Below are positions 43,720 to 47,329 of a stretch of 64,000 bases of DNA, piece by piece; within the stretch, counting starts at the first letter, position 1, and each line of letters starts with the position of its first letter. Made by a program: the position numbers and the translations under genes. The notes beneath the pieces were generated by a model. That model was not told the DNA's origin, ran no database searches, and was given only the letters and a program-made list of their open reading frames with translations. The stretch spans positions 34,678 to 98,677 of the IMG/VR virus record IMGVR_UViG_3300010396_000007; one strand, written 5' to 3'. This DNA comes from a virus.

Positions 43720-44138
43720 AAATTGATACATGGAAAAGCAGTCATTTAATCTTTATTGATAATGGACCCGTGAGCGTCGGAGCTAAAACACGTCAATTCA
43801 GTGTTTTATCAAGTTCAACCAAAGCGCTACTGGGGTACGTTAAATGGTACACACATTGGAGGAAATATTGTTTTTATCCCCTAAACTCTCTTTTCGATGA
43901 CCAATGCCTTGAAGAAGTTGCACAATTTATGTGGGAAGCAACTGATGCTCATATGGGAAGGTTGCCTAACATCAAGCGTGCCAAGGCTTTAGAGCAAAGA
44001 AAGAGACAACGAAGAATTGAGCAGTTGACAAAGCGAAAGAAAAGTAGTACAATGGTTTCAAAGGTTGAGGTTCCGGCTCCTGAAAAGCCGGTGGTGGAGG
44101 GCGGCGGTTTAGCCCCTGAAATACAAGGAGATGTATGA
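43695..44138 (+). CDS. Conserved-type hypothetical protein
   Basis: 147 residues. The central LLGYVKWYTHWRKYCFYPLN and QCLEEVAQFMW segments look like small phage proteins of unknown function seen near replication genes. Basic C-terminus (KRQRRIEQLTKRKKSS). The start is inside the HNH gene, so that gene was inserted immediately upstream. Confidence 0.65.
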   Translation: MESIIKRIEIDTWKSSHLIFIDNGPVSVGAKTRQFSVLSSSTKALLGYVKWYTHWRKYCFYPLNSLFDDQCLEEVAQFMWEATDAHMGRLPNIKRAKALEQRKRQRRIEQLTKRKKSSTMVSKVEVPAPEKPVVEGGGLAPEIQGDV

Positions 44139-44350
44139 TTCTAGGAATTGTAACTGTAGTGGCAGTAGGCGTTGCGGTATATGAATATTTTACAAATGCC
44201 GCATTCAAAGCGGAAGTAGAATCTTCAATTACAACTGCAAACGCAGAAGTAGCTAATCTTGAAGCAAAGGCAAAGAGTGGCGTAGCTGTAGTTGAAGCAG
44301 ATTTTGCAAAAGTAAAGACAGCAGTGGCAGCAATTATCGCAAAGCTGTAA
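44135..44350 (+). CDS. Membrane-anchored coiled-coil peptide
   Basis: 71 residues: an N-terminal membrane segment (MILGIVTVVAVGVAVYEYF) and an Ala/Val/Glu/Lys heptad helix to the end. Overlaps the previous stop by 4 bp. Directly followed by the RNA-gene region. Role unknown. Confidence 0.65.
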   Translation: MILGIVTVVAVGVAVYEYFTNAAFKAEVESSITTANAEVANLEAKAKSGVAVVEADFAKVKTAVAAIIAKL

Positions 44351-44431: not shown

Positions 44432-44436
44432 TATAA

Positions 44437-44560
44437 TTTCCCGTAGTGGTAAACACCAAGCCATGACTACTTGCAAAGGTTGTGCAGGTTCGAAAATCCT
44501 GCCGGGAGAGCTTAACTCATATACTTAACATCTGTAGCGGTTCGAATCCGCTCGAACCTT
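44437..44560 (+). other. Two overlapping, imperfect tRNA-like structures
   Basis: Reading 1 (44437-44510): acceptor TTTCCCG/CGGGAGA and a T stem GCAGG/CCTGC but a 9-nt T loop and no good anticodon arm. Reading 2 (44486-44560): acceptor AGGTTCG/CGAACCT and a perfect T arm AGCGG-TTCGAAT-CCGCT, but poor D and anticodon stems. They share 25 nt and cannot both mature from one transcript. CTCATATAC (44516-44524) also pairs perfectly with GTATATGAG (44590-44598). Confidence 0.35.
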
Positions 44561-44609
44561 GGCTTGGGCAGATATAAGGCTAGCTTCTGGTATATGAGTG
44601 ACGTATTGA

Positions 44610-45045
44610 TTACGCACGTTGAAGGTTAGTTTGTTTCCAATAAGACGCGGGTTCGACTCCCGCCTAGTCCACCAATTTATGTAACATTGTTTTTACTATG
44701 GGCTAGTCATGGTTTCGATTGTTGGATGAATGAATTGTAACTTGCTTGCCGATAGCTGACTATCGTAATAAGCAGAAAAACAATAGACGGCAAATCCGTT
44801 TATGACAAGATGGTAGCAGCCCTTTCTGTGGAAACACAGGAAGTTGCTTCCGAACTTGTAATGGCCTAAACAGCCGGGGTCTAGACCACGGACCTAGCAA
44901 CAGAAGTCTCGCAGTGCCTTCACAGGCCGAGAGATAGTGGTATAAGATTGAAGCAGAGGGGATTGTACTGGCGGAAGCTTAAAACCCCGGTTGTGGAACG
45001 GCGCAGCGAATCAACGAAGCATGTACATGACTTTTAGGTGCGTAA
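44610..45045 (+). ncRNA. ssrA: Circularly permuted tmRNA
   Basis: Upstream piece: tmRNA-type T arm GCGGG-TTCGACT-CCCGC, then CTAGTCC-A-CCA ending at 44674. After a 25-nt spacer the 5' piece starts GGGCTAG (44700), pairing 7/7 with CTAGTCC, then the D-arm signature TGGTTTCGAT. P2 pairs 44719-44737 with 44627-44643 (17 bp, 2-nt bulge). PK1 (GCCGATAG...CTATCG) and CAATAGAC precede the resume codon GGC (44789). The tag frame runs to TAA 44867-44869, 26 codons, starting GKSVYDK and ending SELVMA. TTACGCAC (44610-44617) pairs with GTGCGTAA (45038-45045), closing the molecule. Mature ends are estimates. Confidence 0.87.
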
Positions 45046-45082: not shown

Positions 45083-45159
45083 GTGGGGCAGGCAACTATT
45101 GGCTTGTTGCGGAGGATTGTGACTCCTCTTCTGGGCGTTCGATTCGCCGCCTCACCCCA
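45083..45159 (+). tRNA. tRNA-His(GTG)
   Basis: Acceptor GTGGGGC/GCCTCAC, discriminator C as in bacterial tRNA-His, encoded CCA. Anticodon arm GAGGA-TTGTGAC-TCCTC (GTG). D stem GCAAC/GTTGC. T stem is only 4 bp (GGCG/CGCC). The base at -1 is T, so the usual encoded G-1 identity element is absent. Confidence 0.85.
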
Positions 45160-45160
45160 T

Positions 45161-45239
45161 CAGGGACAGGGCCATGAAGCAGGCCACTCGCTTTGGAAGC
45201 GAGAATATCGTCAGAGTGCGAATCTCTGGTCCCTGACCA
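45161..45239 (+). tRNA. tRNA-Pro(TGG)
   Basis: Acceptor CAGGGAC/GTCCCTG, A, CCA. D arm GGCC-ATGAAGCA-GGCC. Anticodon arm CTCGC-TTTGGAA-GCGAG (TGG). T arm CAGAG-TGCGAAT-CTCTG, with TG instead of TT opening the loop. One base separates it from tRNA-His. Confidence 0.88.
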
Positions 45240-45299
45240 TATTGAGCCGCTGGCGTGGGCGTGCATGAGGGACAGAGTGGGGTCCAATATCAGGACCCC
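45239..45299 (+). ncRNA. Stem-closed RNA module after tRNA-Pro
   Basis: ATATTG (45239-45244) pairs with CAATAT (45285-45290); alternatively GGGGTCC pairs with GGACCCC (45279-45285/45293-45299) around a 7-nt loop. The two are mutually exclusive. No T-run follows. It precedes the FmdB-type gene and could be a processing or control hairpin. Confidence 0.4.
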
Positions 45300-45340
45300 T
45301 AGTTGACCACGACAACTGCCCTGCGATTTTAGGAGAAGGA

Positions 45341-45541
45341 ATGCCGCTGTATACATATAAATGTCCCGTATGTGATCGGACAAAAGAGGTTTTGCAAAAA
45401 GCACAAGATGCGGCACCTGAATGTGAAGTACATGATGACGCTCGCGGTGGTAGTCCTGTTTACATGACGCGCGTATTGAGTACGCCAAGCGCACCGCAGT
45501 GGAATTGCCGTACAGCACATTCACGTAGTAAAGGATTCTAA
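45341..45541 (+). CDS. FmdB-type zinc ribbon protein
   Basis: 66 residues starting MPLYTYKCPVCDRTKEVLQ, the N-terminus of FmdB/CxxC small zinc ribbons, with a second metal pair replaced by ECEVHD. Ends TAHSRSKGF. ATG behind AGGAGAAGG. Such proteins are possible regulators; role unknown. TAATG overlap with the next gene. Confidence 0.75.
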   Translation: MPLYTYKCPVCDRTKEVLQKAQDAAPECEVHDDARGGSPVYMTRVLSTPSAPQWNCRTAHSRSKGF

Positions 45542-45741
45542 TGGAAAATATTGATTTCACTAAGGAATTAACAATTGGTATAAACGATCATCCTTCTATT
45601 AAATTTCATTTTGATACCAAGAATTTCCATAGTCCTGATACCGTTTGGTTTTTAGATTCTATTTCATTTGATGGGTGCAACCAAGACTGCCCTAAAGAAT
45701 TTTACCAAGAGATTATCAAATTTTGTCAAGAAAAGATTTAG
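45541..45741 (+). CDS. Hypothetical protein
   Basis: 66 acidic residues (MENIDFTKELTIGINDHPSI at the start), with a Cys pair GCNQDCPKEF. No recognised family. Lies between tRNA-Pro and the tRNA-Met-like gene and is translationally coupled to the zinc ribbon gene. Confidence 0.6.
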   Translation: MENIDFTKELTIGINDHPSIKFHFDTKNFHSPDTVWFLDSISFDGCNQDCPKEFYQEIIKFCQEKI

Positions 45742-45744
45742 TTC

Positions 45745-45816
45745 GCCGGTTCCCGTGGCGTGGAGTGCAGGCTCATACCCTTGCGCTGCTAGGCTCGTTT
45801 CCTAGGACCGGCACCA
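45745..45816 (+). tRNA. Unusual tRNA with CAT anticodon (Met-like)
   Basis: 72 nt with CCA. Acceptor GCCGGTT/GACCGGC, A, CCA. CTCATAC forms the anticodon loop (CAT) with an AGG/CCT-centred stem. T stem CTAGG/CCTAG but loop CTCGTTT instead of TTCGAAT. The D region is about four bases short. It could be Met or Ile2 specific, or a tRNA with altered T-loop contacts. Confidence 0.65.
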
Positions 45817-45824
45817 AGAGGTAA

Positions 45825-45923
45825 GTACGCCACTTAAAAAGTGCAATATACCTTCGCTGTGATGGCGGTAGGGGCAGTGGCTAACTTTGCAAATCCTAGT
45901 GATCCCTGCAAGGAGTGGCGTAC
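45825..45923 (+). ncRNA. Stem-closed RNA module (99 nt)
   Basis: A perfect 10-bp outer stem, GTACGCCACT (45825-45834) with AGTGGCGTAC (45914-45923), encloses smaller hairpins including CGC-TGTGATG-GCG. No T arm and no open frame of note. It sits between the CAT tRNA and tRNA-Val. Resembles the stable small RNAs found inside T4-type tRNA clusters in position only. Confidence 0.5.
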
Positions 45924-45935
45924 ACGGCCTATTTC

Positions 45936-46011
45936 GCGGGATTAACTCAGTGGCTAGAGTATCTGCTTTACACGCAGAGAGTCCGGGGTTCGAATCCCTG
46001 ATCCCGCACCA
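45936..46011 (+). tRNA. tRNA-Val(TAC)
   Basis: Acceptor GCGGGAT/ATCCCGC, A, CCA. D arm ACTC-AGTGGCTA-GAGT. Anticodon arm TCTGC-TTTACAC-GCAGA (TAC). T arm CGGGG-TTCGAAT-CCCTG. Canonical in all parts. Confidence 0.94.
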
Positions 46012-46015
46012 AGCA

Positions 46016-46065
46016 GGTATATCGGGTTGAATTGACAACCTATCAGCGGGGGCACGCGATATACC
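46016..46065 (+). ncRNA. Stem-closed RNA module (50 nt)
   Basis: GGTATATCG (46016-46024) pairs perfectly with CGATATACC (46057-46065). Inside, GGTTG and CAACC form a second hairpin. Begins 5 nt after tRNA-Val. No terminator features. Confidence 0.45.
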
Positions 46066-46072
46066 GTAAGAA

Positions 46073-46141
46073 GGCTCAACGCTTTCACTTGCTGTTTGAT
46101 GAGCCATTCAAATTAAATGCAACAGCAGGGGTTGTGAATGG
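46073..46141 (+). ncRNA. Two adjoining stem-closed RNA modules
   Basis: GGCTCA/TGAGCC (46073-46078/46100-46105) and CCATTCA/TGAATGG (46104-46110/46135-46141), overlapping by two bases. The following ~90 bp to tRNA-Tyr show no gene. Confidence 0.4.
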
Positions 46142-46234
46142 TTTGCCTTAAAATCTTTCTGACTTGCGGCATGAATAGAAACCGATGACTTTTAGCCGGG
46201 TATTTTCAATATGTAAAACCTGGAAACATTTTGT

Positions 46235-46325
46235 GGGGGTTTGGCTCAGTGGCGACGGCAGCAGGCTGTAACCCTGCGACCCTAAGCGGTGAACACCAGA
46301 GGTTCGACTCCTTTAGCCCCCACCA
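46235..46325 (+). tRNA. tRNA-Tyr(GTA)
   Basis: Class II tRNA. Acceptor GGGGGTT/AGCCCCC, A, CCA. Anticodon arm GCAGG-CTGTAAC-CCTGC (GTA). Long variable arm. T loop TTCGACT. Confidence 0.93.
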
Positions 46326-46333
46326 AACGAAGC

Positions 46334-46420
46334 GCCGGTATGGTGGAATTGGCAGACACAGCAGACTTAGAATCTGCCGCCCGTAAGGGCATAGGGGTTC
46401 AAGTCCCTTTACCGGCACCA
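46334..46420 (+). tRNA. tRNA-Leu(TAG)
   Basis: Class II. Acceptor GCCGGTA/TACCGGC, A, CCA. Anticodon arm GCAGA-CTTAGAA-TCTGC (TAG). Long variable arm with GCCC/GGGC. T loop TTCAAGT. Confidence 0.94.
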
Positions 46421-46422
46421 AG

Positions 46423-46507
46423 TTAGGCATACGCGCATCGTAAGCGCATGGGATGTAGTGGTATAGGCCGGTTCGAATCCGGCGCATTCTGTTACGAGTA
46501 TGCCTAA
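46423..46507 (+). ncRNA. tRNA-like minihelix closed by a long stem
   Basis: Outer stem TTAGGCATAC (46423-46432) with GTATGCCTAA (46498-46507), continued by TCGTAA/TTACGA (46438-46443/46492-46497). Inside is acceptor-like GGGATGT/GCATTCT, AGTGGTATA, and a perfect T arm GCCGG-TTCGAAT-CCGGC (46467-46483). There is no anticodon arm in place; GCGC-ATCGTAA-GCGC upstream resembles one. It may be a decayed tRNA or a tRNA mimic. Confidence 0.5.
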
Positions 46508-46512
46508 GTTTT

Positions 46513-46600
46513 GCCCTTGTGATGGAATTGGCAGACATAGCGGACTTAAAATCCGCAGCCCTCAGTGGGCGTAGGGGTTCAAGTCCCTTCAGGGGCACCA
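46513..46600 (+). tRNA. tRNA-Leu(TAA)
   Basis: Class II. Acceptor GCCCTTG/CAGGGGC, A, CCA. Anticodon arm GCGGA-CTTAAAA-TCCGC (TAA). T loop TTCAAGT. Similar in layout to the TAG isoacceptor, suggesting duplication. Confidence 0.94.
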
Positions 46601-46602
46601 GT

Positions 46603-46679
46603 CGCCGTATAGCTCAATCGGCTAGAGCACTTCGCTTATAACGGAGAGGTTAGGAGTTCGATGCTCCTTACGGCCACCA
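46603..46679 (+). tRNA. tRNA-Ile(TAT)
   Basis: D arm TAGCTC...GAGC, anticodon arm CTTCG-CTTATAA-CGGAG (TAT, codon AUA), T arm AGGAG-TTCGATG-CTCCT, A, CCA. Acceptor CGCCGTA/TACGGCC leaves a C1-C72 mismatch, a trait normally linked to bacterial initiator tRNA. Confidence 0.88.
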
Positions 46680-46701
46680 AATTATTAACTTCGTTTTCTT
46701 C

Positions 46702-46730
46702 TTGACTTCCCCAAAAAAATTTAGTATAAT
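46702..46730 (+). promoter_or_regulatory. Sigma70-type promoter inside the tRNA cluster
   Basis: TTGACT (46702-46707), 17-nt A-rich spacer, TATAAT (46725-46730), about 10 bp before tRNA-Ser(GCT). It would restart transcription of the last tRNAs and the following early genes. Confidence 0.82.
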
Positions 46731-46739
46731 GGTGTCAAT

Positions 46740-46829
46740 GGAGCGTTGGGTGAGAGGTTTAAACCAGTGCTTTGCTAAAGCACCGACCCCGAAAGGGGTC
46801 CGCACGTTCGAATCGTGTGCGCTCCTCCA
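46740..46829 (+). tRNA. tRNA-Ser(GCT)
   Basis: Class II. Acceptor GGAGCGT/GCGCTCC, T, CCA. Anticodon arm GTGCT-TTGCTAA-AGCAC (GCT). Variable arm GACCCC-GAAA-GGGGTC. T loop TTCGAAT. Confidence 0.93.
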
Positions 46830-46838
46830 TAGGATTAA

Positions 46839-47231
46839 ATGAGAAATACAAAACGAATTGGAGATGTTTCGACTGCCAAAATTGCGGCAGCTTTATTAGC
46901 AAAAGGATATACGGTTTTATACCCATTCGGAGATAATGAACGTTACGATTTAGTAATAGAAAACCATAATGGATTTGAAAGAGTGCAGTGCAAGACAGGA
47001 AGACGGACAAAATCAGGTAATATTTCATTTAATACAAAAAGTGTTTCCTGTAATGGTAAAACTGTAAAAGATTATAAAGGCCAAATTGAATACTTTGGAG
47101 TCTACTATCCGTTAGACGATAGTTGTTATTTGATACCTCTTGATGTTACTGGAACTAGCGAAACAACACTTCAGTTAACACAATCGAACATGGCTCGCAG
47201 TACTAGATTGGCGAGTGATTTTAAAATTTAG
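46839..47231 (+). CDS. PD-(D/E)XK homing-type endonuclease
   Basis: 130 residues. RIGDVSTAKIAAALLAKGY then VLYPFGDNERYDLVIE and FERVQCKTGR match the small PD-(D/E)XK nucleases (acidic Asp in YDLVIE, Gln-x-Lys in QCKT), a group that includes homing enzymes of cyanobacterial tRNA introns and free-standing phage copies. It is wedged 10 bp and 5 bp from two tRNA-Ser genes, a typical homing site. Confidence 0.83.
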   Translation: MRNTKRIGDVSTAKIAAALLAKGYTVLYPFGDNERYDLVIENHNGFERVQCKTGRRTKSGNISFNTKSVSCNGKTVKDYKGQIEYFGVYYPLDDSCYLIPLDVTGTSETTLQLTQSNMARSTRLASDFKI

Positions 47232-47235
47232 GTTT

Positions 47236-47329
47236 GGAGGGTTGGCAGAGTAGAAATGCTGCGGTCTTGAAAACCGACGACTGCGCCGACAATCGGACAG
47301 CGAGCGTGCAAATCGTTCACCCTCCTCCA
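47236..47329 (+). tRNA. tRNA-Ser(TGA)
   Basis: Class II. Acceptor GGAGGGT/ACCCTCC, T, CCA. Anticodon loop CTTGAAA (TGA) on a CGGT/ACCG stem. Long variable arm. T arm GAGCG-TGCAAAT-CGTTC with TG opening the loop. Confidence 0.9.

Follow-up and report, generated by a model that had tools for sequence, protein, structure and literature searches.

A permuted tmRNA gene downstream of DNA polymerase I

The window, by which we mean the whole 64,000-nucleotide stretch analysed, corresponds to bases 34678-98677 of a 98,677 bp IMG/VR virus record. Downstream of a DNA polymerase I gene it holds a tmRNA gene in which, as the first-pass annotation had claimed with correct coordinates, the 3' half precedes the 5' half: the T arm, the acceptor strand CTAGTCC and the ACCA end lie upstream, 25 nt before the GGGCTAG (44700-44706) of the 5' half, which is followed by TCATGGTTTCGAT (Table 1). 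ARAGORN called the locus as a permuted tmRNA (tmRNA*) with the 26-codon tag GKSVYDKMVAALSVETQEVASELVMA, in the frame already proposed. The Rfam model of permuted tmRNA, RF04321, whose cut-off is 47 bits, scored 72.8 bits over 44614-44869. The betaproteobacterial type RF01850 reached 49.9 bits, under its cut-off of 84; in the same Rfam search the window sequence was not listed above cut-off for the alphaproteobacterial type RF01849, and RF00023, the standard tmRNA in one-piece order, gave nothing above cut-off at the locus. The permuted covariance model was thus preferred over the standard one, and a standard tmRNA with a downstream T arm was called by neither Rfam nor ARAGORN.

Table 1. Positions in the window of the tmRNA gene parts and of neighbouring features.
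Feature	Position	Strand	Evidence
DNA polymerase I gene, 940 aa	39940-42762	+	Pfam DNA_pol_A; precedes the tmRNA in relatives
Promoter-like site TTGACA-17-TACAAT, 11/12	44025-44053	+	consensus scan only
ORF of 71 codons, immediately before the tRNA-like/tmRNA block	44135-44350	+	
Distal helix 5' strand GCACGTT, acceptor piece	44614-44620	+	pairs 6/7 with 44739-44745; RF04321 match starts at 44614
P2 3' strand, on upstream acceptor piece	44627-44643	+	complementary to 44719-44737; own-partner preference, 0/5000 permutations
T arm GCGGG-TTCGACT-CCCGC	44647-44663	+	sequence, RF04321 alignment
3' acceptor strand CTAGTCC (44664-44670) and ACCA (44671-44674)	44664-44674	+	7/7 pairing with 44700-44706, G3-U70
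Intervening sequence, 25 nt	44675-44699	+	between ACCA and 5' acceptor strand; presumably removed in maturation, as in known permuted tmRNAs
5' acceptor strand GGGCTAG (44700-44706) and D-loop-like TCATGGTTTCGA	44700-44718	+	sequence, RF04321 alignment
P2 5' strand, on downstream coding piece	44719-44737	+	complementary to 44627-44643; own-partner preference, 0/5000 permutations
PK1 region, hairpin CGATAG/CTATCG (44750-44755, 44760-44765)	44741-44775	+	fold, RF04321 alignment
Tag frame GKSVYDKMVAALSVETQEVASELVMA, 26 codons (44789-44866), stop 44867-44869	44789-44869	+	ARAGORN; pN < pS against four relatives
PK2-like element: ACCAC (44885-44889)/GTGGT (44937-44941), conserved CCTAGCAACAGAA (44893-44905), inserted hairpin TCTCG/CGAGA	44885-44941	+	

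Two of the three pairings that had been proposed to join the halves can be read from the sequence as claimed. The acceptor stem (44664-44670 with 44700-44706) is paired in all seven positions and has G3-U70, the identity pair for alanine. The 17-bp P2 consists of 8 pairs (44719-44726/44636-44643) and 9 pairs (44729-44737/44627-44635), several of them G-U, on either side of a 2-nt bulge. The third, an 8-bp closing helix (44610-44617/45038-45045), is complementary as stated and in the fold can be extended by 6 further pairs beyond a 6-nt bulge, but helices as long occurred in 6% of shuffles, and we no longer regard it as a conserved part. Among 22 relatives no consistent counterpart was found (21 were at shuffle level; L393 had a 9-bp match at about 4%), and bases 44614-44617 are needed instead for the distal helix 44614-44620/44739-44745. 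The latter has one mismatch in the window, and its GCACGT/ACGTGC equivalent is visible, with changed letters, in most relatives.

Conservation of the permuted arrangement in related phages

A polymerase search with a single protein gave one relative only, and an alignment of the upstream DNA polymerase gene was therefore used. It provided 41 loci, and a pairing scan together with Rfam then identified 23 distinct permuted tmRNAs, including those of the window and of the phage Tunturi_3. Terminase relatives led to 24 whole records, 9 of which contained an RF04321 match above cut-off. At the DNA level, matches in the phage collection were mostly of the tRNA-Leu type, and none of those listed lay over the tmRNA.

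Tunturi_3 (PP885686), a 97.6-kb podovirus of Tunturiibacter psychrotolerans (PMC11924767), is the closest cultured phage. Much of its genome matches the source record in tblastn in a similar order, with identities of 89% for the major head protein, 65% for the portal, 55% for the terminase and 48% for the polymerase, and both genomes have the gene order polymerase-ORF-tmRNA-phosphoesterase. In several relatives, Tunturi_3 among them, a short ORF ends just ahead of the tmRNA. The Tunturi_3 gene (RF04321, 63.3 bits) belongs to the same phage group and occupies the same place as that of the window; its tag differs, having 29 residues and ending in MLAA. It is neither annotated in PP885686 nor mentioned in the accompanying paper (PMC11924767), and since it was overlooked there, the number of permuted tmRNAs in phages from other than aquatic samples is probably underestimated. 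Judged by sequence comparison, the permuted tmRNA gene, located near DNA polymerase I, belongs to the conserved gene content of this lineage of ~98-kb podoviruses.

Across the 23 sequences we found 13 different acceptor stems, all with 7/7 pairs and all with G3-U70, although the 7/7 count is partly by construction, as the pattern scan demanded full acceptor pairing for part of the set. P2 pairing was not demanded. Each P2 strand preferred its own partner, with a mean of -26.5 kcal/mol compared to -20.4 kcal/mol for cross-phage combinations, and none of 5000 permutations was as good. The P2 of the window is weaker than that of the majority of relatives: with 12 of the 22 partner strands taken from other phages, pairing was equally good or better. 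The intervening sequence is 11-219 nt long in relatives, the upper value coming from L388 (10764-11163), where it includes extra T-arm-like stretches; the others have 11-118 nt. At L193, L384 and L366 TTCGANT is replaced by the T loop TAGCATAT or TAGCATAA and the D loop is likewise changed (AGATTCGA), the stems still being paired.

RF04321 scores of the phage relatives ranged from 52 to 84 bits versus 97-162 bits for cellular permuted tmRNAs, with genes of Pseudomonadota as positive control. The 72.8 bits of the window are well under the cellular range, which counts against the reading that we favour, as do the comparatively weak P2 and the mismatch in the distal helix. Despite this, the locus is very probably an ssrA gene in circularly permuted form, carried by a ~98-kb podovirus to which Tunturi_3 is related, an assessment that covers the two-piece processing and host-dependent tagging proposed below.

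The tag is a long and variable reading frame

The shortest tag in the 23 phage sequences has 12 residues and the longest 37, and 16 of the tags have 26-37. The tag of the window groups with four others, all five sharing YDKM or YDEM close to the N-terminus and a C-terminal LVMA or LVLA. Tunturi_3 falls into a second set, of basic tags ending in LAA or MAA, and a third consists of short tags (12-15 residues) ending in AAAA or AGR. The phage tags are unlike those of the host lineage, and synonymous changes exceed nonsynonymous ones: pooled pS was 0.59 and pN 0.34 for the five homologous tags of the window's set, and pS was higher than pN in all four sets tested, which supports translation. To judge by these substitution patterns, the tag frame is under selection. 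Part of the YD conservation may be due to a hairpin around the resume codon. In most relatives a CCTNGNAACAGAA-type motif with flanking complementary strands follows the stop codon, and it is on this basis that a PK2-like element is listed for the window.

The presumed host lineage uses a standard tmRNA

From the host of Tunturi_3 we infer that the host of the window phage is a member of the Acidobacteriota; a terminase search of Acidobacteriota genomes gave no match and was uninformative as to the host. A standard tmRNA was present in 97 of 120 Acidobacteriaceae genomes and in four named strains, of Edaphobacter lichenicola, Granulicella mallensis, Terriglobus albidus and Occallatibacter savannae, with tags such as AEPQFALAA. 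No permuted tmRNA gene was found among 396 Acidobacteriota genomes. Thirteen of these had matches above the RF04321 cut-off, 12 of which are standard tmRNAs according to ARAGORN; the thirteenth (L341) runs off its contig inside the downstream T arm and is a standard gene cut by the contig end. A tRNA just upstream, as at L340 and L341, seems to be the shared explanation of these matches. As Acidobacteriota use the standard one-piece tmRNA, the phage and host forms differ, and so do the tag C-termini (VMA in the window phage versus LAA in the host lineage).

Proposed function and alternatives

The most likely function, deduced from sequence features, is trans-translation during infection with the help of host AlaRS and SmpB. 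tRNA-processing enzymes would cut the transcript at the ACCA end and before the GGG, whereby the 25-nt spacer would be lost, and the product would be a two-piece RNA held together by the acceptor stem, P2 and the distal helix. Host AlaRS would charge it via G3-U70, and host SmpB and EF-Tu would bring it to stalled ribosomes, where the nascent protein would gain the 26-residue phage tag. The phage would thereby have a ribosome-rescue channel of its own beside the one-piece tmRNA of the host, and rescued products would be marked with the phage-specific C-terminus VMA in place of LAA. The observation in the first-pass annotation that SmpB is missing extends to the whole 98.7-kb source record, and the records of the phage relatives likewise yielded no SmpB gene; since the mechanism needs only host SmpB, this is compatible with it. 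A permuted phage tmRNA gene that would depend on host SmpB, as originally suggested, remains the best reading, the two halves co-occurring in 23 related phage sequences. Tunturi_3 gp125 (L204 34861-35199, minus strand) is annotated as an RF-1 domain release factor and is possibly a second rescue factor of the ArfB type; no match to it was found in the source record.

Among the alternatives, the one that survives best is that the two-piece RNA serves mainly a purpose other than proteolytic tagging, for instance by competing with host tmRNA or because the tag redirects or stabilises proteins. We consider this unlikely, yet it draws on the long tags, many of which end in VMA, VLA, AGR, VKV or ASA and not in the LAA of the host lineage, and on phage DS6A, whose tag-less tmRNA reportedly inhibits the endogenous one (PMC11915505); on the other hand, the tags of some relatives end in LAA or AAAA. 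Similarly speculative is the idea of a phage-owned rescue channel whose long, fast-changing tags alter what happens to rescued proteins rather than just mark them for the usual proteases of the host. A decaying or passively carried bacterial ssrA copy without function in the phage would fit the G-U-rich P2, the mismatch in the distal helix and the missing SmpB, but it is very improbable given that 23 distinct sequences have retained the gene close to that of the polymerase, that acceptor stems vary with full pairing and that tags evolve with pN < pS. One can practically dismiss a reading that assigns the upstream T arm to a tRNA of its own and takes the downstream half for an incomplete standard tmRNA: CTAGTCC would also have a 6/7 partner in AGGCTAG (44577-44583) and there are tRNA-like pieces upstream, but neither a tRNA nor a downstream T arm was called at the locus, relatives keep the arrangement without those pieces, and P2 joins the halves.

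Relation to known permuted tmRNAs

The first-pass annotation had considered a phage copy with a long 26-codon tag unusual, but permuted tmRNAs in phages are already documented: by 2022 a total of 53 two-piece tmRNAs had been reported in 18,146 phage genomes, 50 of the 53 from marine or aquatic samples (PMC9004378), so the kind of gene seen in the window is not new. The tmRNA database holds 79 bacteriophage sequences (PMC11915505), and huge phages carry both tmRNA and SmpB (PMC7162821). With the permuted tmRNAs of RF04321 and RF01849-RF01851 the window gene has in common the gene order, a CCA before the 5' half, acceptor and P2 pairing, PK1 and a tag frame; in contrast to them, the phage clade scores lower, its host phylum uses the standard form and its tags mostly have 26-37 residues. 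Melnitz and other phages (PMC9004378) also carry a two-piece tmRNA, the type of which was likewise mismatched to the host lineage. However, Melnitz, a myophage of marine origin, has a gene of the alphaproteobacterial type and a glutamine riboswitch, whereas the window represents a clade of soil podoviruses with a presumed Acidobacteriota host. What is new is a clade-wide permuted tmRNA in ~98-kb podoviruses whose host phylum has the standard form, together with long phage-specific tags; we found no description of this in the open-licence literature.

A pattern scan of viral contigs returned at least 119 stretches; the majority are permuted tmRNA genes, and a few are a tRNA beside a standard tmRNA. 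In trees of the paired domain, the phage sequences are close neighbours and are separated from most of the other permuted tmRNAs of viruses; a single origin was neither proved nor rejected (AU p 0.37), the branches being long and the sequence short. L371, L384 and L375 pass the cut-off of RF01849, and the T loops of L371 and L375 are GGCGGCA and GGCAGAA, compared to GGCGGTA and GGCAGAA in alphaproteobacterial cellular permuted tmRNAs; the bacterial reference T loop is GGCGGTA, not TTCGA. These passes and alpha-like T loops hint at an alpha-type source of the phage tmRNAs.

These phages bear on the question of why phages carry tmRNA. In Acidobacteriota phages the phage RNA, predicted to consist of two pieces and to encode a long tag, can be distinguished by size and tag mass from the one-piece host RNA with its short LAA tag, and with Tunturi_3 and T. 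psychrotolerans a cultured pair is on hand, so that it can be asked directly which tmRNA acts in infection and on which proteins.

Other RNA elements near the tmRNA gene

Upstream of the tmRNA, a T-arm-first, D-arm-later element at 44344-44447 matches the Rfam family YrlA (Y RNA-like, a permuted-tRNA mimic) with 31.9 bits, below the cut-off of 69. Its outer stem GTGGAG/CTCCAC holds, relatives gave one weak match only, and no Ro60/TROVE gene was found in the source record. Two overlapping noncanonical tRNA-like pieces occupy 44435-44560: the T loop of the first (TTCGAAAAT) is 9 nt long, and the second, at 20.4 bits and below cut-off, would take the same T-loop bases as acceptor strand. Downstream of the tmRNA, ARAGORN found nine tRNA genes at 45083-47329 (His, Pro, Val, Tyr, two Leu, Ile and two Ser). 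At 46450-46490 lies an acceptor-T-arm minihelix without anticodon arm, with GGGATGT/GCATTCT paired 7/7 including G3-U70, a GGTATAG-type linker and no CCA; a search of the window, of the 41 loci of relatives and of 571 kb of shuffled sequence gave no further minihelix of this kind.
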